Shown here: positions 5,966 through 56,900 of the stretch, in pieces
Layout of the letters: every line of letters starts with the position of its first letter
Position numbering within the stretch: position 1 is the first letter of the stretch
From: Sistotremastrum niveocremeum HHB9708
Taxonomy: Eukaryota; Basidiomycota; Agaricomycetes; Sistotremastrales; Sistotremastraceae
Reading direction: 5' to 3'
Assembly (NCBI GenBank): GCA_001630475.1
Contig: KV419398.1
Location: forward strand, 223,825-287,824
DNA length: 64,000 bases
Made by a program: the position numbers and the translations under genes
Notes under the pieces: generated by a model
Told to the model about the DNA's origin: nothing
What the model saw: only the letters and a program-made list of their open reading frames with translations
Databases searched by the model: none

Positions 5966-6110
5966 TTTCCATCGTCTTTCTTTTCGATTCTATTTCTCTC
6001 TCTATCTTCGAACTCTCTTTCATTTCACTATGCGCTGGTCGCCTATCCTCGTTGCCTCAGTCTTTTCCCTCCTTCCCTTGACCGCATGGTCGCATCCTGC
6101 TCCTACTTCC

Positions 6111-6347
6111 TGTTGGAATTCGAGCTAGTAGATAGAATAGTATTAGATAATCTCGGACATATCGGACATACGCGACGAAAAGTCGCGCCACGCAAGCCCT
6201 CCATCCTCAGTTGCTTTCCATCAACTGAGGAGTGAGTTTTACATTCGTTCGCATCATTAGACATTCACTGATCGTTACTAGCATAATCTATTAGGTATAT
6301 AACACAATCATTAGTTGCTTTCCATCAACTGAGGACATAATCTATTA
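6111..6347. mobile_element. Short LTR-like insertion (solo LTR or small non-autonomous element)
   Basis: 237 bp starting TGTTGGAATTCGAGC and ending CTATTA, with CTTCC repeated on each side (6106-6110 and 6348-6352; the match extends to TACTTCC). The TG start and 5-bp duplication suggest a solo LTR, but the end is TA rather than CA. It contains a perfect 9-bp hairpin, CCTCAGTTG/CAACTGAGG, at 6205-6230, and a degenerate second copy of it near 6312-6335. No coding capacity. Confidence 0.6.
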
Positions 6348-6653
6348 CTTCCAACTCCACCTTACTGGGTCGAGGAATCCAGAAGCGAAGTATCGTTTGT
6401 GGCTAGTGTTCCAAGGTCCAGTTGCCGTGACCGGTGGCAACCGGCAGTCGCGACCGGACCGTGACCGGACCGCAGTTGCCGGTTGCCTAGGTTCTTGGAA
6501 AATCAGGCAACCGGCAACCGCAGTCATGACCGGTCGTGACCGTGGTCGCAACCGAGGACCCTTAAGGGTCCCCAACTAGGGTACCCAGTAAGGCCTCCAA
6601 CGAATATATACTTGCCTTACCTGGGTACCTGCATGCAGGTACCTGCCTGTTTT

Positions 6654-6954
6654 TGTTGGACGATGAGTCCAACCGAGCCGTGTCTCGGATATCTCGGCTA
6701 CGATCTCCTTATAAGGTATCAGCCGTGTATCGGGTACGGTCTCATATATTGTCTCAGACACTTAGTATTACAGACTGTCTCGGACTATAGGGAGTTACTA
6801 CTTAGAGTACTACCCGCTTTTGTATATATAGATAGGCCGGATACCGGTATAGCTCAGAGGTTCTTACCCTGACTATATTCCGGTATCTCAGGCAAGTGTT
6901 CATTACCTAATAGAGGTTCTTACCCTGACTATATTCCGGTATCTCAGTTTAACA
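6654..6954 (+). repeat. Copia 5' LTR
   Basis: 301 bp, TGTTGG...AACA, nearly identical to 15120-15420. It contains an internal duplicated motif (GAGGTTCTTACCCTGAC twice near the right end). The probable primer-binding region follows at 6955. Confidence 0.92.
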
Positions 6955-7095
6955 GGTTATGAGCCCTGCGCTCTCGCTGTGAAACCCGAATAAACCAAAA
7001 CCTCAATTTATTATCGTGCCTACCACTACCTAAAAGCCTTCTTGTCGAATTCACTCCACTTCCCCAACACACTTCGAAATACACCCGTCTCCGAA

Positions 7096-8106
7096 ATGAA
7101 TATCGACACCAACGAAAAGAGCTCCGGAACCCCAGGTTCCAAATTCCCGACTTTGATCCGAGGATCCGGTCACACGCCGTCCAACTTCCACACTTGGAAG
7201 GTACAAGCAAAAGCCGTCTTCGAAGATTTAAAGATTTGGGACGTCGTTTCGGGAATCGAAACCGCCTCCATCCCTAAACTCGTTGCCGACAAAACTATCA
7301 AAGCCAAAGTCAACGGTGTCCTCCAAGATGTCGTCATACCCGGAAATGAAGAAGCCCACGCTAAGGCCCTTGCCGATAATGCCGGGTGGATCGAAAAGGA
7401 CAAAAAGGCGCTCCGGTACCTATTAACCGGAGTCGACTCCGACACAGTCTCGATGATCGCCGAATGCGGAACCTCCGCAGTCGCGTGGACTACCCTCTCC
7501 GATTATTTTGCTCCCGCAAATCTTCAGGAAGTCACCACCACTCATCAGCAACTCGTCTCCTATAGATGCGCTGAAGATATGAACGTTGACCTTTGGCTCA
7601 ACGATATGCGCACCATATACTCCCGCCTTAAGGCACAAGGAGGGAAGTTTATGACCGACGAGGCTTACGCGACACTTCTTCTCACGCTCCTTCCGGGTTC
7701 TTGGCGCGGCTTCATCGGGTCGCTCAAGATGAGCTACCGAGGTGTACGACTGACCTCGAAATCCGTCATTTCTGACATCCGCAGCGAATGGATAGATCAC
7801 TGCCGGGACTCTCCAGACGCTCTCAGTAGCATATTCTCTGCCCGTGACGAAGCAAACCGAAAAAGGAAGGCAACGTCTTACCCCGGCAACTCCCAGGCCG
7901 CCACTAACCGACGAAAGACTTCTAATACGTCCTCAAGGGACCTTACATGTACCAACTGCGGTCTCACGCGCCACGACTTCGCAAATTGCTACAGGAAAGG
8001 CGGGGGATCCGAAGGGAAGTACCCCGACAACTACAAAGGCCGTCGAGACCTCCACCTCCTCCCAGTCAACCCAAGTCAGCAACACGCGCGTACTCGCCGA
8101 AAATGA
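7096..8106 (+). other. Copia fossil: gag region
   Basis: Gag-like polyprotein region typical of copia elements, with a CCHC zinc knuckle (CTNCGLTRHDFANC) near 7950-7990. Part of the retroelement at 6654-15420. Confidence 0.8.
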
Positions 8107-9693
8107 GTCTCTCGGGGAGGGTACTACACTCGGTCGGCATCTTGTCATGCACATGTCGTTCCCGGAGATGAACGAACAAGACCCCCACTTCGTCCTTCCC
8201 ATCATCAACTCCTCCCTCGTCAAATCCAACAGCTTCTATCATGACAGCGGCGCCAACAGGCATGTCGCTCATGACCGCTCAATTTTTACCACCTACTCCT
8301 CCATCCAACCCATCCCTGTCTCGGCTTTTGGAGATAACCTTGTCGTTGAGGCTATCGGGCGCGGCGACATCAAACTCATACTCGAAAACAACGGCGCCAT
8401 TACACACGCTACGCTATCCAACGTCCTCCATATTCCCTCTGCTCGCCAAAATCTCGTCTCCGAATCCCAACTCAACGCCTACGACATTTTCTCAACATTC
8501 TACAAGGGTGGAGTCCACGTTAAGCATGCGGGCGAGATTATAGCCGATGGCAAACTGGAGAGAGGGGGGATGTTTAGATTGGATTTCTCCGCTATCCCTC
8601 GCTCGTCATTACTCGACCGCATGTCCACCGCCACCACCAACGACGAAGCGCCGGAGTCATCGACCAAACACTCACGAACCGTCGAAGAGGATTTTTACAC
8701 CGCCTAACGGGTCACTCGAGTGTGAAAGGCGTTAAACGACTCCTATCCTCCATTCTAGGCATCACCATAGCTCCTTCCTCTTCCTCCGCCGGCACATGCG
8801 ATGCCTGCGCCAGGGGAAGGATACACAGACTCCCGTTCCCACAATTTACAGACCGACGGGCCACTTCCGTGCTCGAAAGAATACACTCAGACATCGGGGG
8901 ACCTCTCCCGCTCGGGTACGCCGGCGCAAGATACTTCATCCTTTTCATCGACGACTTCTCCCGCTACGTCTACATCTACCTCATGAAATCCAAGGACGAA
9001 GCGCTCACCAAATTTCTCGAATTCAAGGCTCTCGTCGAAAACCAACACACGCGCAAGATCAAGATCTTTCGAAGTGACAACGGCTCCGAATATATCGCAA
9101 ACAACTTCAAGAAAGTCCTCGCCGACGCCGGTGTATGGCACGAGCTCACCACCCCCGACTCTCCTCAGCAGAACGGGGTATGCGAACGATATAACCGTAC
9201 CATCCAAGACATGGCGCGTTGCATGCTCATTGGACGACGTGTCCCCGTCTGGTTTTGGCCGTTCGCCCTCAGCACAGCCTCTCACATCAAAAATCGACTC
9301 CCTTCATCATCTCTCCCCGATTTCACCACCCCTCACGAGCTCTGGGTCGGCACCAAACCTAACCTCTCCTACTTTCAAGAGTTCGGCGTCAAGTGCTACG
9401 CAAGAATAATCTCACCGTCGCTCAAGAAACTTGACCCGCGGGGGGAGTTCGGTATGTTCCTCGGCTATGCCAAAGGTGCCAAAGGATACCTCTTCTGGCA
9501 CACCGACAGTCACACGGTTAAAGTTCGGCGGGACCTTCTGTTCAACAACGCACCCGACTCCGGATCGCCCGACTCCGTCGATTACGATCAATACGCCCCA
9601 CTCTTCGATCAAGATCTGAGTCGATCGGAGATTCGCAGGCAGATCCAAGACCTGGACTCTACGGAGAATCACAGGCATTTCGCACCCCTCGAC
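8107..9693 (+). other. Copia fossil: protease and integrase region
   Basis: Protease-type DSGAN motif near 8245; integrase core with HSDIGGPL, FIDDFSRY, FRSDNGSEY and SPQQNGVCERYNRT between about 8885 and 9210. The region ends where MITE A copy 2 is inserted. Confidence 0.82.
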
Positions 9694-10202
9694 TAGTGTT
9701 CCAAGGTCCAGTTGCCGTGACCGGTGGCAACCGGCAGTCGCGACCGGACCGTGACCGGACCGCAGTTGCCGGTTGCCTAGGTTCTTGGAAAAACAGGCAA
9801 CCGGCAACTGCAGTCATGGCCGGTCGTGACCGTGGTCGCAACCGAGGACCCTTAAGGGTCCCCAACCAGGGTACCCAGAGGGTATTTTGGGGGTCAAATG
9901 GGTGTTTATGGTGACATATACAGTATATATTGGTCTCTATATGCATGTACTACATCATATGAGGTATATATACAGCATATCTAATATAATAATGATTAAA
10001 ATACTGATAAAAGACCAGTTGTGACTGGAAAAAATGGGCATGACCGGTTGCGCAACTGGTCGCAGCCGTGACCGGTCGCCGGACCGCAACCGCAGTCGCA
10101 GTTGCCAGTCACGCCAAATTTTGGACGGCAACCGGACCGGCAGTTGCCAGTCGCACCCTCCGGGGGTCAAAAGTCCAGTCGTGACTGGACCTCAGAACAC
10201 TA
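9694..10202. mobile_element. hAT-like MITE family A, copy 2 (intact, 509 bp)
   Basis: Complete copy with ends TAGTGTTCCAAGGTCCAG and, reversed, TAGTGTTCTGAGGTCCAG. CCCTCGAC is duplicated at 9686-9693 and 10203-10210. It lies inside the copia element and is therefore younger than that copia insertion, and younger than MITE A copy 1. Same orientation and interior as copy 1. No coding capacity. Confidence 0.92.
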
Positions 10203-10617
10203 CCCTCGACTCTTCGGAGAATCAGAGGTACGTCGCGTCTACATAATCAATACGATCTCATTACTTATGCACCGTTCTCAGGGTTGAGTTTAATGCACCA
10301 ACCACGGCTCAGGATCAGGACTCGCTGCCCGATCCTAGAGAACCGGCTGAGAACAGGTACGCAAACATATCATACGATGACTCTGGAGAACAAGCTAATG
10401 CGAACCCTCAGTAATACACTCAGACGGTCAGAACGCACGCGATTCCCTCCTGCGAGATTCAGGGCTCTGAAAGCCCATTGTAATCTCGCCTCCGACTTGA
10501 TCATCAGCCTCGAGGCCTTCGACTCCATCGCTCCTGACGACGAACACCCATTCATCTTCTCTCACAACACACCATACGACCCCGACGAGCCTCGTACCTC
10601 CCAAGAAGCCCTCAGCG

Positions 10618-13543
10618 CAATGCTAAAGCCTATATATGTATACAAGTTTGTGGCCACGAGGTGTAGAACATGTAGACAAGTTCATGGCCGCATATTTTAT
10701 TCATTTATTTAATAATATTGGTTTCATGTAGATATTGTTAAGTACATGAAAATTCGGAAAAATATTGAATATAATGGGGAATTTCTTGGGATTGACGTAG
10801 CTCAGTAACGGCTGCTCCGTTTGGGCTGATTCTTGTCACGTTGTGATCAGGGAAAGAAGCAGACCCTGACCAGACCCTGCCAAGAGACCCTGAGCCAAAC
10901 AAGTGCAAACATCAGGGTCCCAGGAGACCCCAGGCACCATTTTTCGATGCCGTTTCAACCGTGACAGTCACAGGGAGTGCTTCTGAACAAACAAATACAA
11001 ACAAAGCAGGAAAAAGACCCACCGGGGGTTATTTTGCGCTGGGAACGCAATGGTGAGGGTCTCAGGGTCCAGAACCAAACAAAACCAAACATTTGGACCC
11101 CAGGACCCACCAGGCACCAAATTTTGCGCTCTTTTCAATGGTGCTGCCCATTTTAGGTAATTCTCAGGCTCTAGGTTCATTGGGCCCCCAAATAGGATAA
11201 AAGGGGTCAATTCTGGAAGCTCTCAGTGAGGGCTATCCAATGGTGACCATATCAGGCCAAATTAGGTAATATGCTACCTGGTCACCCCAGCTGCCCAATT
11301 CTGGCCCATCCCTGCTATTCCCTGCACTTCAGGGATGTCCCAGAGCTGTTGGGGTATGTTTGGTCCATTTGACCCACTATACCCCTGTTTTGCCTTCCCA
11401 GACCCTGGGCAGCAGCCTGTCCCTCAAATTGCTGCTGTAGCCATATTCAGAGGGTTTGGGGCATGCAGGGCAGCCATAATAGGGTCTGGCCTTGTCAAAT
11501 GACTGTACCACTAGTATATACCCTGACAATCACTGAAACTAGACCCTCTCTGGTGCTGATGCTAATATAGCCATTATAAGCTCATTCTTACAGCAGCCAG
11601 GTGCATATTGGACCTCCTGACCTCCTGGTAGAGCTCATTATACTTGTATTGTCATATACTCAAAGCTGGAGGTCCCCTAACCTGGGCTATGGTCTCCTGG
11701 AATAGAAATACTGCTGGTTGTAACCAGTATTACAGCTCTGCAGCCCCAGGAACTGATGCATAATTCATGGTATCTAGCATGTGAATACTAGACATGCTTT
11801 CATGATTTTACAAATCAAAATCATCTCAATAGCTTCTCTGGCTGCTCTTGTATTTGAGAATTACTTTTGAATTTCAATACCTTAATACGGACATGAGATA
11901 ACATGTAAATGACTTCACTGTCTGTCAGTGGGTCAGAATATATGTACAGAACACACTGACAGAATATGAACACATTTGGCCCACTGCTTGGCTCTCTATA
12001 GGGCAAACAATATTGGATATCCTGGCAAAGAACAGCCTATATCTCAGGAACCAGAGCAGCTATTCAAATTCTGTAACTAGATTTGAACTCAGCTCAAAAA
12101 ATGGCACATTTCATATTCTGGGGTATTTTGGAACTTTGGAAATCTTTCACGTTGTGCTTCAAAATGACCAGATCCCAACAGAGAGTTGTACTTGGTTCTT
12201 GCTAGGTATCTGCCTCAGACTTGAATCTTGGGCCAACATATATTCAAGTATAGGTCATATATGTGTGAAATATATGTTTTCTGACTTTATATTCATGTGC
12301 AATCAGTGGTACAAGCCCATAAATTCAGTAAATCACTGAGTGTTCAGCCAGAGATTCTGAGCATATTGTGAGGTATTTTGGGCATTGCCTGCTGAGTAAG
12401 AGTAATACTGGACTATATTAAGACCTTGTGACCACACTCTGACTCAATAAAGACCATTACAACAGTGTATATAGCCGTTAAAATAGTGTAGCCTGTTCAG
12501 TGCAGTAGGTACTGGCCCATAGCTTTCAGAGCATTACAAAATGAGTGTATTGCTTCCAAATGATTACAAATTGTGTACAATAAATGTATTGGTCCATTTA
12601 ATATAGCCCTGTACTGGCAGGCAGTAGCAGCCCAGTAGTATTAGCAAAACAGAAGTATTGAGTGTGCTATATGGGATTGTAGAGCTTTTCAAGGAGATTC
12701 TGAATATACAACAACCATTCTGTAATGTTGTGTCTGTGGCCCACAAATTGCAAAATACTGCCCCAGAGCCAGCGATAAAAAAAGGAAAAGTGGCTAGAAG
12801 GCATATAGGAGGCGTCCAGTACCTGTCTGGATACATTAGGTAACCCTGGCATGCCTGGTTCCTGCCAAAATGGCCATTATATACCCAGGGTGCCCCATTT
12901 GAGCCCATATATCCAGCCCTGGAAAGCCCTGATCAGGGGCTACCAGAATTGACCCCTTTTACCCCATTTTGGGGACAGGTGGACCCAGACCCTGAGAATT
13001 GCCCAAAATGGACCCCACCATTGAAAAGAGGGCAAAAAATTGTGCCTGGTGGGCCCCAGGGTCCAAATGTTTGTACATGTTTGTCACTGGACCCTGAGAC
13101 CCTCACCATTGCGATGGCAGGGCAAAATAACCCCCGGTAGGTCTTTTTCCATTTTTGGAATGTTTGTGTTTGTTTGTTTGTTTGTTCAGAAGCAGACCCT
13201 GTCACTGTCACGGCTGCGACGGCATTGAAAAATGGTGCCTGGGGTCTCCCAGGACCCTGATGTTTGTATTTGTTTGGCTCAGGGTCTCTTGGCAGGGTCT
13301 CATCAGGGTCTGCTTCTTTCCCTGATCAGAACGTGCCAAGAACCAGCCCAAACGGGCCAGCCGTTCATGAGCTACATAAATCGCAAATATATTCAATATT
13401 TTTCCGAATTTCATGTAGATAAGTTTATCTACATGTCCGCAATAATAATAAATATATTCATTTTATGTCCATGTAGATAAAGTACCTACATGTTCTCAAC
13501 CCCTCGGCCATGAACTTGTATACATATTTAGCTATATGCTCTG
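10618..13543. mobile_element. 2.9-kb element with about 600-bp terminal inverted repeats
   Basis: Inserted in the copia element; CTCAGCG occurs at both borders (10611-10617 and 13544-13550). The ends read CAATGC and, reversed, CAGAGC, fitting the CAnnG termini of many hAT elements. About 600 bp at each end (10618-11225 and 12940-13543) are imperfect inverted copies, roughly 80% alike by eye, sharing ATGTATACAAGTT, AGGGAAAGAAGCAGACCCTG and GGAGACCCCAGGCACCATTT. The 1.7-kb core has no long open frame and no transposase that I can recognise. A foldback-like non-autonomous DNA transposon is the best reading; the superfamily is uncertain. Confidence 0.8.
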
Positions 13544-13550
13544 CTCAGCG

Positions 13551-15097
13551 GGCCCAACAAAGCTGAATGGTTAACCGCTATTCATGAGGAACTCGCCTCT
13601 CTTCAGGCTATGGATGTGTACGAAGACGCTCCACTTCCCCCGGGTCGGAAAGCCGTCAAATTCAAGTGGGTATTTCGAGTAAAGCGGAACGAACACGGCC
13701 ACATCGCACGCTACAAAGCCCGCCTCGTCGCGAAGGGATACACTCAAATTCCTGGCCAAGATTTCTTTGACACCTTCTCCCCCGTCGCCCGATGGGATTC
13801 CATCCGCCTCATACTCGCACTCGCTGCCATCTTCGATTGGGAACTGAAACACCTCGACGTCAAAACCGCCTATCTCAACGGGCTACTACACGAGGAAGTA
13901 TATATGGAACGTCCGGCGGAATTCTTCGGCGGAAAAGGAACTTGGCGGTTGAAGAAGGCCCTCTATGGGTTGAAACAGTCCGGCCGAATGTGGTATCTGA
14001 CCATCCACGAAGTCTACACCAAACTCGGATTCGTTCGACTCGAATCTGACTGGTGTGTTTACGTCCGTCAGACCTCCGATGGCGTCATCATTGTGGCCAT
14101 GTCTGTGGACGACCTGCTCGTCGCAGCTTCTTCGCTCGAGCTCTACAATTGGTTCGAGACCGAAATTGCCAAATTCTTCATCATTTCCGTCCTCGGCGAT
14201 GCTCACTGGATACTCGGCGCTAGAATCACTCGCAACCGCTCTGCAAAAACCCTCACCATCGACCAAGAGACTTACGCCATTGCCGTCCTTGAAGGCTTCG
14301 GAATGCAGAACTGCAATCCCGTGTCGACGCCACTCGATCCCAAAACCCGCCTCACATCCGACATGTCGCCGAAGACTGACAACGAGCGTAAAACAATGGC
14401 AACTTCTGATTACCGCAGCATCGTTGGTCGTCTAATGTATCTCGCCACCACTTCCCGCCCCGACCTCGCCAATCCCGTCCGCGAATTATCCCGCTTCATG
14501 GCCGACCCCGGACCCGGTCACCTCGCCGCCGCAAAGCGAGTACTGAGATATTTAAACGGGTCACGAAACGTGCCCATCACGTACTGCGGGAATAACGCCA
14601 CCCCCTCCTTCACCATTTATTCCGACGCCGACTGGGCTCAATCCGACAATCGACGATCTGTCTCCGGTTACATTGCAGAGATGGGGGGGGCACCGATATG
14701 TTGGTCATCCAAGCAACAAGCAGTCGTCGCACTGTCCTCATGTGAAGCCGAATTCATGGCCACTACTCACGCCGCCAAACAAACCCTTTGGCTCAGATCA
14801 CTCATGCAGGAACTCGGATTCGGAATCACACATCCTACCACCATCTTCTGCGACAACCAAGGCACCGTCGCTTGCACACATAATCCTCAGAATCACTCCG
14901 CCATGAAACACATCGACATTCGCGCAAATTTCATCCGACACTGTGTCAGTACCGGTCTCGTCGACGTAATCCACATTCCCGGAACCGAGATGATCGCCAA
15001 TCTCCTCACCAAGCCACTCGCCGCCCCTATGCACGAGAAATGGATGAAGATGCTCAAACTCAAGAACACTCCCCCTTCCTCTGATACCGCCGCTTAA
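13551..15097 (+). other. Copia fossil: reverse transcriptase and RNase H region
   Basis: Copia-type RT (KFKWVFRVKRNEHG, YKARLVAKGYTQ, LDVKTAYLNG, catalytic VDDLLV) followed by RNase H (YSDADWAQSDNRRSVSGY, ALSSCEAEFMA). The domain order is typical of Ty1/copia. Part of the fossil element at 6654-15420. Confidence 0.88.
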
Positions 15098-15119
15098 CTC
15101 GTATGGACTCATGGGGGGG

Positions 15120-15420
15120 TGTTGGACGATGAGTCCAACCGAGCCGTGTCTCGGATATCTCGGCTACGATCTCCTTATAAGGTATCAGCCGTGTATCGGG
15201 TACGGTCTCATATATTGTCTCGGACACTTAGTATTACAGACTGTCTCGGACTATAGGGAGTTACTACTTAGAGTACTACCCGCTTTTGTATATATAGATA
15301 GGCCGGATACCGGTATAGCTCAGAGGTTCTTACCCTGACTATATTCCGGTATCTCAGGCAAGTGTTCATTACCTAATAGAGGTTCTTACCCTGACTATAT
15401 TCCGGTATCTCAGTTTAACA
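15120..15420 (+). repeat. Copia 3' LTR
   Basis: 301 bp, near-identical to the 5' LTR at 6654-6954, directly after a run of G. Followed by GTTTT, the right copy of the 5-bp target duplication. Confidence 0.92.
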
Positions 15421-15937
15421 GTTTTTTTCAGCCAAAATCCCATACTTGTACTTGGCAAGTACAGGTACTTACTTGCCTATACTTGCCTAAATAACCCCTA
15501 TTTACTAGTAGAAATAGCAGGCAGGTACCTGCCTAAATGTCCAGCCAATAATCTCATACCTGCCTACAGTGTATTAGGCAGGTACCCTTGGCAAGTATAC
15601 TTGCGGATATCCTTAAATGGGGTATATTCGTTGGAAGCCTTAGTACCCAGGGGGTATTTTGGGTCTCAAATAGGTGTTTACAGTGACATATCTGGTATAT
15701 ATTGGTCTCTATATGCATGTACCACATCATATGAGGTGTATATACAGTATATATAATATAATAATGGTTAAAATATTGATAAAAGACCAGTTGTGACTGG
15801 AAAAAGTGGCCATGACCGGTTGCGCAACTGGTCGCAGCCGTGACCGGTTGCCGGACCGCAACCGCAGTCGCAGTTGCCAGTCACGCAAAATTTTGGACGG
15901 CAACCGGACCAGCAGTTGCCAGTCGCACCCTCTGGGG

Positions 15938-16755
15938 TAAGGGTGAGCAGCAGATCCAGGTCACCCGCGGTTATACCCGCGGAAATCCTTATCCAGAGCC
16001 GTTTTGACCCGGATCCGTGGGAGCCGTGATCCGAGGGTCCGGATAGGGTCCGGCTCTGGGTTTGGATTTCGCCGAAATCGGCTTTAACCGCGGATATCCG
16101 GGATCCGAGATAATTAATATATTTATTATTTATTATTTAATTTATTGAATATATTTATTATTTCTCGACTATTTGCTCGTGCTTTGTTTGTATTCGTTTG
16201 CGGTCGCGATCAGTTTGCGATCAAACAATGATCGTTCAACAACGCGCGACCACATTTCGAACTCAGCTCTTCACTCTCTCCCTCTCGTTCAGCAACATCT
16301 GGCCGTTCCACCCCCTTCCTCATCAACATCCGCGCTCAACAACATCTCAACAGCAACCAATCAAGTCAAGAATACATGCACAGCAAGAATTATGGAGGTT
16401 GGATGTGGATTAGGGGATGGATGGATGGAAATAGAGTTGGGTGTAGGCTGAAGTGCAAGGAGAGGCTGGCTGGCGAAATGCTGGTCGAAAATAATATAAA
16501 TAATAATATAAATAATGTATATATATATTCGAATAAATAAAACGTTTTTAAAATAATTTATATATTCAATCCGCAGGTCAACCGCGGGCCGCGGATCTTC
16601 CGTTCCGGATACGGCTCTATCCTCGGGTTCGGATCGTCCGGATCCGGATAAAAAGGGTCCGGATAGGGTCCGGATCCAGGTTGGGCTTTCGAGAGAGGCT
16701 TGACCTGCGGGTCCGGCTCGCGGATAAGCCGCGGGTAGACCCGTGCTCACCCTTA
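15938..16755. mobile_element. hAT-like MITE family C, 818 bp
   Basis: TAAGGGTGAGCA at the left end and the same word reversed at the right; CTCTGGGG is duplicated at 15930-15937 and 16756-16763. Inserted in MITE A copy 1. The arms are rich in GGGTCCGGATAGGG and GGATCCGG words, probable subterminal repeats. The middle (about 16160-16440) has ordinary base composition unlike the arms and could be captured host DNA. Short AT-rich ATTTATTATT tracts lie on both sides of it. Confidence 0.85.
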
Positions 16756-17939
16756 CTCTGGGGGTCAAAAGTCCAGTTGTGACTGGACCTCAGAACACTA
16801 TTTGTGGCATCGACCTCCGCACAGCTATCAGAGATGATTGCTTTGATAACCCTGCGATTGTCAATTTCAAACTAGGCGGAACAGCTACCAGAGCGACCGT
16901 CTCTCAGGAAGCCGTCACTCATGGAGTAGTGCCACCAGGATCCGCTTGTGGTAATAGCTCTTTTCCTTTGAAGAATAGTTGTCTCACTAACGTTTCTTGA
17001 ATTATCACAGACCACGTTGTGGAGCTCCAGATCTTAGAGATAGCTATGCAACAGCTCAAGATGTGCGATCTCTTGACTGCACTTAATGCTCTTGATCCGT
17101 TTGGGCCGTTCAATGTTGGCAGGGTTGCGATAAAGACAAAGAGGAATCAAGTTCTTCAGCCACTCGCGGACGTCATCAACGATCCCGAAAACCTTTTCTT
17201 CCTGGCTTCCCAAGTTAACCAAGCCGTGAGAAACATCTGACCTTCTCGCCGTTCGTTCCTCCATTAACACATCTATTGTTCAGAAAGCAACTTATGTGGT
17301 AGCCGCCATCAAGAGCGAAGTCATTAAAAGCAGCGAGAATCAATTTTTTGCTGCCATGGAGTCTTATCTCAGAACTACAAAAGTCACAACAGCTTCACGA
17401 GCCGTGGCAGTAAAACTTAACGCTGCCATTCAAACGATCGCGAAAAATGCAGCCGCTCTGGAAGAAGCTCTACCTAACCCTCCCCCTGCAGATGCCAGAG
17501 CGAAGGGGATCGAGCAGCCACAAAACCTTCTTATAGCTGCTGTGGTACGTAGTTTCCAATGCTTAGCACTTCACGTTTGAAGCTGACTGGGGATCAGGCT
17601 GCTCAAAAAGCCGAAGCTGCGAAAAAGGTCACTTTCATCGATATCTGGAACAGAGTTCTCCTCGGAAAAGTTGTCAATGAGTAGGAAGTTGGGTTATTCT
17701 GTCGTACGATCGCGACCCAACTATATTTCTTGACTCTCGACCGATAAAAGGACGATAGGGGACTTCTAGCGAATGACAGCTTCGGTAGTAGTACACATGC
17801 ACTGCGATAGTTAATGATATCTTTAAGCGCTTCAGACAGAACACTGAGGGATCGGTCTCACAAATGTTCGCCATGCTTATCATGACTTATTAATGATCAT
17901 TATATGAAGGTACGGCTATTGTTCTCTTGAAATATCTGA

Positions 17940-18299
17940 TCAAGCCCAATAAAGGCTAACGAGAATTCCAAAGGTAGCGATGCTTCCAACGAAACTGCTG
18001 CTTCGTTCACTCGAAGCATTGGACTTTGAAGTAGTGGGGCTCGGTGAACTCGTAGATTCCGTGGATACCGGAGTGGTAGATTCTGCTGTCGAAGAAGCAG
18101 AAGACGTGGTAGCTACAGACGCGGAACTCGTGGAGCTGCCAGAGATGGAACTGCTAGAAGAAGTAGCAATGGTTCCGCCGGAAATAGTCAAAGGTTCATC
18201 AGGCACTTGGATTCCGGCTCGTCGGCAATCATCGATGAAAGCTGGTGCATACATTAGAAACTCGAGTAAAAAAATGAAGGTGTATATCGTACTGTCCAT
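17940..18299 (-). CDS. Small Ser/Thr-rich, possibly GPI-anchored protein
   Basis: 119 codons from an ATG at 18299. A hydrophobic N-terminal stretch (YTFIFLLEFLMYAPAF) is followed by DDCRRAGIQVP, a 60-residue Ser/Thr/Ala-rich low-complexity tract, and a hydrophobic tail FVGSIATFGILVSLYWA. Such a tail after a Ser-rich stalk fits a GPI-anchor signal on a cell-wall protein. It could equally be the last exon of a longer gene whose start lies further right, since CTCGAG before the CRRAG segment could be a splice acceptor. No family recognised. Confidence 0.45.
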   Translation of the reverse strand: MDSTIYTFIFLLEFLMYAPAFIDDCRRAGIQVPDEPLTISGGTIATSSSSSISGSSTSSASVATTSSASSTAESTTPVSTESTSSPSPTTSKSNASSERSSSFVGSIATFGILVSLYWA

Positions 18300-19758
18300 G
18301 GCACTCTGAAGCGAGGCTTGATTGCTCGGTCCTTCTTGATCAAGGGTGCATTGTAAACATGTTCTCTCTGCCTCTAGATACGGTGTGGTACAGAAGCATG
18401 ACAGTACTTTGCAAGTCGCCAGTGCACCGTCAGGGCCAGACAGGGTCGTGCATTTGTCGCACTAATCGTTCGTGATTAGCATTCGGATAAAATTTACATC
18501 AACATTAATCAACGTACGTCACCCGAAGTATCCTGACGGCGTAGAGATGCAGCGAGAGTGCCACCTCCGTGAGATGTACTGAGACCTGTCCCAACGTCAG
18601 CATCGTCGTGTTTGATTCGGTCGATGAGTTCATACCGAGAGCAAACAGAATCACAAAGACAGTCAATGCGTGCATCGTTATTCCCGAGTGGAAGGATCTG
18701 GTAACTCAACCACCAAATATATATACGAGGCGGAGGATACGAATGTTGCCTGCCAAGCGCACACCGTTTGCCGCAGTCATCGCTGTGCTGACAACGGGCT
18801 CTGCTTTCGGGTACCTTGAATGCGAGACACGGACTGGATTTGAGGCACACAATTTCGATGTGCTGTATCGTTTCATTTCATGTAGACCTGGAATATGCCA
18901 GTTTCCGTTGTTGTCGCAAAGATGACATGGCTTTGAGCGCTGGCATGTTAGCAGTCGCGGTAATGAAAAGGGCGAGGTGATGTAGACCGAGAATGAAGCT
19001 TCATCTCTGCTATTATAAGTGGAGCTATTGGCTCTCGTGAGGTGCTCTAGAGTCATTGAATAATACGAGACTGGCATGACTATGAGCAGCCCTTGTACAG
19101 TACAGCTGTCGTGACGCGTGATGGGTAGCAGAGGAGTCTGCCGATATTCTGCCGAAAGTTTTCGAGTCGACGACGGCGATACCGTCTCCGAGGCCCGAAC
19201 CGCGAGCCTGGCGGCTCTGCAATCGCCGACCTCAAGGACTTGCATCACCTTGGCATACTGACTAACGCTGAGCCTGTCCAGCAAAGTTCTGCGTGAATCT
19301 TACTTGGGCATTCATCAACAAAAGTGATGTGTTTTGAAAAATATCATAATGCGATATTGACGTTGATTTATCTCATTAGACTTGCATGCTTGCATGAACA
19401 CCGACACAGTCAGTCATATTAGCCCAAAGCTCTGTTGCATTGCATTTATGCTAACCAGCACGACATATGCATCTCTAGGGCCTATTCCGAAGGTTAGACA
19501 CCAGTTCGAATGAAGACCTTGACCATGCCGAACGACTTGAGCTCGCGGGAGCATTTGGTGGAAGAACTCAGGCTTCCATTTCCTGAGCCTGAGCAGTCCT
19601 ACCCCTTCCGACCACTACGTCCTGCTACTCCTTGGAGAGACACCCTAAACCCTTCGCCGTTCATGCTGTAAAGAGGCTCCAGACCAAGATGTCGTCTCCA
19701 GTCGTTCGACCCTCCACATCACAGTCGACAGCCTCGACAAGTGACTCACCCACGAGAT
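18300..19758. other. Intergenic, 1.5 kb
   Basis: Holds a 193-codon minus-strand open frame (19284-18706) with no recognisable motif. A short plus-strand stretch from the ATG at 19690 (MSSPVVRPSTSQSTAS) may be the true N-terminus of the following glutamine synthetase, but I cannot connect the frames. Confidence 0.35.
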
Positions 19759-53903: not shown

Positions 53904-56900
53904 ATGGGCGGCAGAGGTGCTCCGCGAGGCGGAAGTGGTGAACGAGGTGGTGGTCGAGTAAGTCCATTCAATCTCTTCCACTATCTTCTGGATTATGTTT
54001 GCTTAATGATTAACAGGGCGGCGGACGTGGCGATGGAGGAGGGTACCGTGGTGGCGGTGATCGTGGCGGATATGCTCCTCGTGGACGTGGTGGCGATGGA
54101 CGCGGACGAGGAGGTGAATACCGTGGACGTGGTGGCGACGACCGTGGAAGAGGTGGTGGTCGTGGAGGAGATCGTGGAGGCTTTCGAGGTCGAGCGAGAG
54201 GAGGCATTTTCATGGAGAACGTCCCTGCTCGTGTCGATGCTCGACTCAAGGTCGACGAGATGAACGCACTCATCACTGGATTCAAGACCATGGTCGTCTC
54301 CGATACCAAGCTCCCCACTCGTCCTGACTGGGGCACTTCCGGTCGACCAGTCACTTTCCGTGCCAACTTCTTCCCTCTCCAAATCACTGCGAAGACCGAG
54401 TTCCATGAATACGATGTTCAGATCGAACCCAAAAGCGAAGTCAAGAGGGTTCGCAAACGTATCTTCCAGCTTCTCGAAGAAAACAGGGCTTTCGCCAATT
54501 ACGTGCCATACGTCGCCCATGACTATAGTGCCAAAATCATCGCTGCCCGAAGGCTTTTCAAGGAAGACTCAGTCTCTTTCAAGTTCCCGTATTACGATGA
54601 AGATGAAGATGGGCCAAGTCCGAAAGCCAAGGAGTTCAAAGTTACTTTAAATTATTTGCATGCCCTCGACCCGACCAGCTTGAAAGAGTTCGTCCACCAC
54701 TCGACACATTTTATTATATTTCATTATGCTCACTTTCTTCATTCAGATACCTCGAAGGAAATCCTCAATATCGCCACTTCGATTCAGCCCCGATCTTCGC
54801 TGCTTTGAACATCATCGTAGCCAAGGAGCCATCGCGCGGTGGTATTGTCGTTGGCAGACAACGCAATAAATTCTTCTTCGACTTCGACACACACCCTCTC
54901 GGACAGGGTCTCCGTGCGCTCAAAGGTTTCTATTCATCCGTCAGACCCACCTGGAAGCAACTCATGGTGAACGTCAACGTCGCCACGACTGCTTTCTATG
55001 AGCCCGGAAACCTGGCTGACGCCATGTTTGCCGCTGACTCATCGCTGAATGGTGCCCGTCTCACCGCGTTCTGTAAAGGCGTCCGTGTCTCCACTAGCCA
55101 TCTTGGATATACGGCTAAGAAGACCATCTACCGTATTGCCTCCAAACCGGCGAGATCGCAGAGATTTGACGTCGAGAACATGGGTAATGTCTCAGTTGAA
55201 GATTATTTCTATAAGAGTATACAAGTTCTTTTCCGCTACGATTTCGTGTGTTGACTTGTTTTCTATAGAGTACAGGATCAGGCTGGAGTACCCTACCGAG
55301 ATTCCCCTTGTGGATCTTGGTAACAAGGACCGTTCCAACTTCGTGCCAGCTGAACTGTGCACGATCTTGCCCGGACAGGTTTTCCGCGGCAAGCTTTCGG
55401 ATGGTAAGCAGGCTCCAGATCTGCATAATTTTCATTCTCATATCCGCTCAGATCAAACCTCGAATATGATCACCTTTGCTTGTCAATTCCCGAATGTCAA
55501 CGGCGAGACCATCATCAATCACGGCCTGCCCAATCTCGGTCTGCAGACCTCGCCTGTCCTGCAAGCCTTCGGAGTGTCCATCTCCTCCCAGATGACCGTC
55601 GTTCCCGGTCGTATCCTCAACGCCCCTGCAGTCAAGTACGCGAACAGCGTAGCGCGCGTCAACAATGCAAGTTGGAATCTTCGAGACACGAAGTTCGCCG
55701 TACCGGTATCTCTTTCAAGATGGGTAATGCTGTCTATTGTAGACGGGAGCAGGGTACGTCTCCTTACGCGATCTTTCCGGTGTTGATCCTGACTAATCTT
55801 TCTCGTCTACAGTTCGACTTCGAGAATCTGACTGACTTGAAACCAATCATCGATTCTTGGTCCGCCACTTGTACTGGTGCAGGCATCAAACTGACAGAAC
55901 CTGCCCACCCCGTTTTCGTTCGGATACCGGACAAGAGAGCCGACCCTACCCGCATGAAGGGGTTACAGACCATCACGGAGAGATTGAAAGTCTTTAACCC
56001 GCGGCCGACGATTATCATGGTGATCTTGCCGAGCACTGATAAGGATATCTATAATGGGATTAAGAAGCTGGGAGATACTATTGCGGATATTCCGACTGTT
56101 TGTGTACAAGCTCAGAAATTGAGGAAGGATAACGGTATTGTGCGTATTTGCTTCATCTACATGATATGATCATCCGCTGACCTTTGATGCAGTTGCAATA
56201 TTTCGCGAATGTGAGATATCGCTACGATATGAGGTTTATCTACTCATCGTTTCCGATATCTAGGTTGCTCTGAAGTTCAATATGAAGCTTGGCGGTATCA
56301 ATCATAGGATCGAGGGAGAATCTGTGAACTGGCTGAAACTCAAACCCACCATGTTCGTTGGTATGGATGTCACTCACCCGTCTCCGGGCAGTGTGAAGGG
56401 CACGCCATCTATCGCCGCCATCGTCGCTTCGGTTGATTCTCTGTATACCCACTATCCTGCGAGTTTGAGACTTCAAGAATCCAAGACCGAAGTGCGTCCA
56501 ATTCGTTCCCGGTTCGTTTCGCACCTAACTGGGTTTGCTTAGATGATCTCCGATCTGGCCGATATGATGGTGGAAAGGCTTACGGTCTTCGTGAATAAGA
56601 ACAAGGGTGTCTTGCCTCAGCGCATCGTTGTCTTCAGAGATGGTGTATCTGAAGTTCGTCTGTTTTCCCTTTCCAGCATCGCCAACTGCTCACGATCTTC
56701 CCTCATAGGGTCAATTCGCCCAAGTTGTCGATCTTGAATATCCCGCTCTCCGCGCCGCTGCTAAGAAGATATCGAAGGATGGCAAATACGACCCCAAGAT
56801 CACTATCATCATCTGTGGCAAACGGCATCACACTCGGTTTTATCCTACGGATTCTCAGAGCGGAGATGATAATGGTAACCCTCGACCTGGCGCTGTTGTG

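Follow-up and report, generated by a model that had tools for sequence, protein, structure and literature searches.

Nested clusters of transposable elements are already known from fungi. In Mycosphaerella graminicola, 78 putative clusters are reported in the excerpted text of PMC4522978, with elements inserted within elements, target-site duplications (TSDs) that define the base element, and genes in or near the clusters. A locus alike in these respects was analysed here in Sistotremastrum niveocremeum HHB9708, in a window of 64,000 nucleotides (contig C5, GenBank KV419398.1, positions 223825-287824), with the 34.7-Mb genome assembly (111 contigs) searched for related sequences. Exon 1 of one gene carries seven insertions, each with an exact, abutting TSD. 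The gene contains copy 1 of a miniature inverted-repeat transposable element (MITE), A1; A1 contains MITE B and MITE C; B contains a Ty1/copia retrotransposon; and the latter contains a second copy of MITE A (A2) and a long element, E. A solo long terminal repeat (LTR) lies at a separate site in the exon. The cluster figured in that M. graminicola excerpt is 47 kb long, with an LTR-element base and class I members only; the nest here differs, in that class I and class II elements alternate and an exonic MITE of 509 bp forms the base. Given the clusters already described (in the same excerpts), the nest adds one clean case to a known class. Its parts, in window positions, are as follows.

6030-6110, + strand: first piece of host exon 1, with start codon and hydrophobic leader; its final 5 bases form the solo-LTR TSD
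6111-6347, no strand assigned: solo LTR, 237 bp, TGTTGG...CTATTA; TSD CTTCC at 6106-6110 and 6348-6352
6348-6403, + strand: second piece of host exon 1, beginning with CTTCC; its final 8 bases, TTTGTGGC, form the A1 TSD
6404-16800, no strand assigned: A1 with its contents; own sequence 6404-6588, 15651-15937 and 16764-16800, 509 bp in all; TSD TTTGTGGC at 6396-6403 and 16801-16808
6589-15642, no strand assigned: MITE B including copia; own sequence 6589-6653 and 15426-15642 (282 bp); TSD GTACCCAG at 6581-6588 and 15643-15650
6654-15420, + strand: Ty1/copia retrotransposon; LTRs 6654-6954 and 15120-15420; TSD GTTTT at 6649-6653 and 15421-15425
6955-6976, + strand: copia primer-binding site, matching the interior of tRNA-Met genes
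9694-10202, no strand assigned: A2, 509 bp, inside copia past the integrase region; TSD CCCTCGAC at 9686-9693 and 10203-10210
10618-13543, no strand assigned: element E, 2926 bp, CA...TG ends; TSD CTCAGCG at 10611-10617 and 13544-13550
15938-16755, no strand assigned: MITE C, 818 bp, terminal inverted repeat (TIR) TAAGGGTGAGC; TSD CTCTGGGG at 15930-15937 and 16756-16763
16801-17684, + strand: rest of the host gene, with the end of exon 1, later exons, GT...AG introns and stop codon at 17682-17684

The seven TSDs, one to each layer, that a preliminary description of the locus had listed were all present, exact and adjoining the element ends, and the boundaries it gave were all correct in the sequence. 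At a fixed place, one such match would arise by chance with a probability of 4^-5 to 4^-8, depending on the TSD. Taking B and C out of A1, each along with one copy of its TSD, leaves 10397 - 9062 - 826 = 509 bp, exactly as long as A2, and the three pieces of A1 (185 + 287 + 37) aligned gap-free to A2 with 26 differences. This sum had been held to confirm every boundary; the arithmetic holds, and it confirms the boundaries of A1, B and C, but it is silent on those of copia, A2 and E, because these lie inside B and cancel. The ends of copia are instead fixed by B, whose two pieces (65 + 217) are restored to 282 bp, the length of all ten further B copies that were read (those scoring highest among 23 other places matching the 217-bp query in full). 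A relative of copia on contig C53 has the same LTR ends and is flanked by 5-bp TTTTC repeats. The boundaries of A2 are supported by its own TSD and by the 509-bp length of family A, and those of E by its own TSD and by the codon phase of copia, which continues from one side of E to the other on a hand reading in which one CTCAGCG is counted.

The host gene itself was found, as previously described, to retain open frames outside the insertions, which were computed, and splice sites, which were judged by eye. Frame 0 is open over 27 codons in 6030-6110 and over 17 codons in 6353-6403, the frame is open again from 16803, and the pieces are in phase. Ten kilobases is far beyond the usual length of fungal introns, which bears on any reading of the stack as one intron.

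We conclude, with a probability of about 0.93, that successive ordinary transpositions into exon 1 built the nest in the order read, that the events from copia onward were recent, and that A2 is probably an old copy that moved. The sequence shows a solo LTR at one site in exon 1 and A1 as the first arrival at another; B and C then entered A1, copia entered B, and A2 and E entered copia, each insertion leaving its own TSD. A, B and C may have been cut and pasted by hAT transposases acting in trans, copia would have inserted through its integrase, and the solo LTR may derive from recombination between two LTRs. The order of layers stood as first claimed, as far as nesting gives an order, and family A moved both before the arrival of copia (A1) and after it (A2). 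Nesting leaves free the order of the solo LTR relative to A1, and of C relative to B or copia.

The three MITEs appear to share a superfamily. hAT elements are marked by an 8-bp TSD and by TIRs with the consensus T/C-A-purine-N-G. A, B and C have hAT-type TIRs at both ends (TAGTGTTC, TAAGGC and TAAGGG, respectively) and, judged by TSDs and ends, look like non-autonomous hAT elements. They are alike with hAT MITEs in their 8-bp TSDs, TAGTG or TAAGG TIR starts and short bodies, and A and B also in high copy number. Full-length matches to A2 occur at at least 43 places including A2 itself (40 of 247 candidates scored), and the left-end pattern of A has 75 exact genome matches, one of which is a right end on C10, giving 74 left ends. 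These are clustered: 12 neighbouring pairs lie within 10 kb, compared to 1.6 expected (2000 random placements ignoring contig ends, maximum 8 pairs). An exact 8-bp TSD flanks 27 of the 30 A loci that were fetched, which are those nearest to A2 and include it, and also flanks A1. For B the TSD is exact in the copy here and in 9/10 of the other copies read; the left 65 bp are identical in all ten, while the right part has 0 to 5 differences, and the copy here is identical over its 282 bp to one on C32. MITE C matched 16 places, 7 of them full-length including the copy here, where its 8-bp TSD is exact. Two frames in or overlapping C, and one overlapping A2, matched no Pfam family at an E-value of 0.1.

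hAT dimerisation domains occur at 21 places in the genome. Near a hAT gene on C25 there is a 20-base end that resembles B (3 mismatches), but it flanks the domain on the wrong side. Locus L007 (C66:67171-70679) holds, within 3 kb, the end of a hAT transposase, two A copies, and an A-related element that is about 74% alike to A2 and has its own 8-bp TSD, TCTAATAT. At locus L089 (C36:75600-80360), two A ends lie 4.7 kb apart around a mixed interval with an extra A-like piece. This interval looked like a candidate autonomous A element; the hAT domain listing has none on C36, and the locus is possibly another nest.

The copia element has LTRs of 301 bp each with TG...CA ends and one difference between them, and its LTR sequence matched the element here and the one on C53. 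Its domains are gag (PF14223), Pol_BBD (PF22936), integrase (PF00665) and reverse transcriptase (PF07727), with PF00665 (in 8578-9696) preceding PF07727 (in 13532-15094). It is thus alike with Ty1/copia elements in gag, in integrase before reverse transcriptase, in its 5-bp TSD and in its LTR ends, and differs by the interruptions of A2 and E and by a change of frame between the protease-like and integrase regions. In 7796-9696 the protease-like frame ends at 8707 and the integrase frame runs from 8578, so that pol is not a single open frame.

Seventeen consecutive bases of the primer-binding site match the interior of tRNA-Met genes, up to the anticodon loop. These genes, on C13 and C14, are two of the three places that match the primer-site sequence with one mismatch, and we take them to be of the initiator type. 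The match suggests a primer of the half-tRNA kind. Drosophila copia is named with a 'half-tRNA' primer in an excerpt of PMC5371799, and the likeness, as far as that excerpt goes, is a primer site that matches the inside of tRNA-Met. The exact 19-base primer-site sequence occurs at 13 places, including the copia here; one of them, L090, was rejected as the primer tRNA, being no tRNA by ARAGORN or Rfam, and looks from its context like the primer site of another element.

The solo LTR ends in TG...TA rather than TG...CA. On C45, where the ends were read, both of its ends recur, separated by about 13.5 kb and flanked by GTCGT repeats.

Element E has TIRs with arms of about 620 bp that are 81% alike. 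Its nearest copy, on C99, shows 10 mismatches in 1533 bp (99.35% identity), and the longest matches at the six other loci compared were 87-98%. MULE elements have TSDs of 8-11 bp. E is alike with MULE or foldback elements in having inverted ends of several hundred base pairs, and differs in its 7-bp TSD, which is present in only this copy of three; long TIRs were thus found, and a TSD consistent across copies was not. Five of its longer open frames matched no Pfam family at an E-value of 0.1. Given this, and the C9 and C16 copies without a TSD, we describe E as a long-TIR DNA element only. Seven other places that lack matches to the ends of E resemble its middle (11925-12292, E positions 1308-1675) at 75-77%. 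One of these, L075, has no open frame longer than 151 amino acids, and two of its frames were without a Pfam match (E-value 0.1).

How old is the stack? Fungal substitution rates lie between 1e-9 and 1e-8 per site per year, and at these assumed rates the age of copia is roughly 0.2-2 million years, with a very wide interval as it comes from one substitution. The nest had been called datable at several levels; this holds for copia, through its LTRs (1/301), and not for the other layers. Its youth, also claimed before, is likely and well supported, though unproved: the copia LTRs differ at one site, B is identical to the C32 copy, E is close to the C99 copy, and the host pieces are still open.

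Several points weigh against this account. The nest was read from one assembly alone, and the date of copia, resting on a single substitution, would be wrong if the LTRs had undergone conversion. One of the ten B copies has no exact TSD, and of the 30 A loci one has one TSD mismatch and two have no TSD; E has no TSD in the C9 or C16 copies, in which both ends are readable. No transposase was found between A-type ends in three hAT neighbourhoods read of the 21. The A2 and C layers are without a close relative among those seen: the nearest relative of C is 89% alike, the five other full-length ones being 74-76%, and the majority sequence of 28 full-length A copies (the 30 fetched, leaving out A2 and a copy of 508 bp) departs from A2 at 16 of 509 sites, the nearest of the 28 being 18 differences away from it.

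A2 is younger than copia, because it sits inside it. If its 16 differences had arisen in place at the rate of the LTRs, the 16:1 split would have a probability of 3.6e-5, or of 0.005 for the 9 differences not seen in the other 28 copies, assuming equal rates and no LTR conversion. Since A2 is younger than copia and still 16/509 off the majority, MITE divergence is no insertion clock here. The differences were probably carried in by an old copy that moved, and the simplest account is relocation of that copy by cut-and-paste, with a donor site that is gone or unsampled. They look inherited, because 14 of the 16 fall where the family varies most (positions 199-352, a 154-bp middle) and 7 of the 16 are common to other copies. 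The right 157 bp of A2 are those of the family majority, and its left end too equals or comes close to it. Among the 28 copies the mean pairwise difference is 23.4, and A1, with 12 sites off the majority and 3 of them private, is ordinary for the family.

The main rival to relocation of an old A2 copy is that A2 arrived as a normal member of the family and that recombination with a diverged relative afterwards replaced its middle. The concentration of 14 differences in the middle would be expected from such a replacement; against it, this region varies about twice as much across the family at large (4.2 differences per 100 bp among the 28 copies, compared to 1.9 and 2.2 elsewhere). When 39 other places out of 99 candidates were scored, none matched the A2 middle above 92%, which counts against a recombination donor as well as against the moved copy. 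We regard recombination as unlikely, if still the alternative to be taken most seriously. A second rival, to which we give little credence, is that the whole stack is old and that the copia LTRs are alike through gene conversion. The divergence of A2, which is with E the latest layer by position, and the 89% nearest relative of C would fit great age; the open host pieces, the identity of B to the C32 copy over 282 bp and the closeness of E to the C99 copy (99.35% over 1533 bp) would not, and the A2 differences are unevenly placed and look inherited. An assembly artefact, in which the repeats of A, B and copia were wrongly joined, is made conceivable by the high copy number of A and its two copies in the nest, but is the least probable explanation of all, given seven independent exact TSDs, junction repeats that differ between layers, element lengths that come out exactly and a codon phase preserved across the host pieces.

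Successive insertion as the preferred reading leaves a host gene that is presumably inactive and that was probably lost recently. It had been called a secreted-protein gene; the hydrophobic leader, seen by eye, supports this and the gene probably encodes a secreted protein, for which we claim no function. The gene pieces, searched separately, matched no Pfam family above the cut-off, and a genome DNA search found no second copy of 16801-17684, although diverged relatives could escape it.

Elsewhere in the window, an open frame on the minus strand at 17940-18461 combines cysteine-rich and serine/threonine-rich parts with a hydrophobic end, and matches no Pfam family; its product looks by eye like a glycosylphosphatidylinositol-anchored surface protein. 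An Argonaute gene (ArgoN, ArgoL2 and PAZ) lies at 54014-55783, and a member of the fungal protein kinase family PF17667 is also present; this family and the short introns, judged by eye, point to a fungus.

The nest is an unusually clean record of relative order, in which three MITE families, a retrotransposon and a long-TIR element occupy about 10 kb with exact joints. As the loss of the gene is probably recent, strains with an empty site may well exist. The nest also provides a direct check on the dating of MITE insertions by divergence, and for A2 the check fails. Family A is star-like, a pattern normally read as one old burst. We put at about even odds a more general proposal, namely that this family still moves by relocating old copies, so that divergence would record the age of a lineage and not of an insertion, and that selection for mobility keeps mainly the ends.

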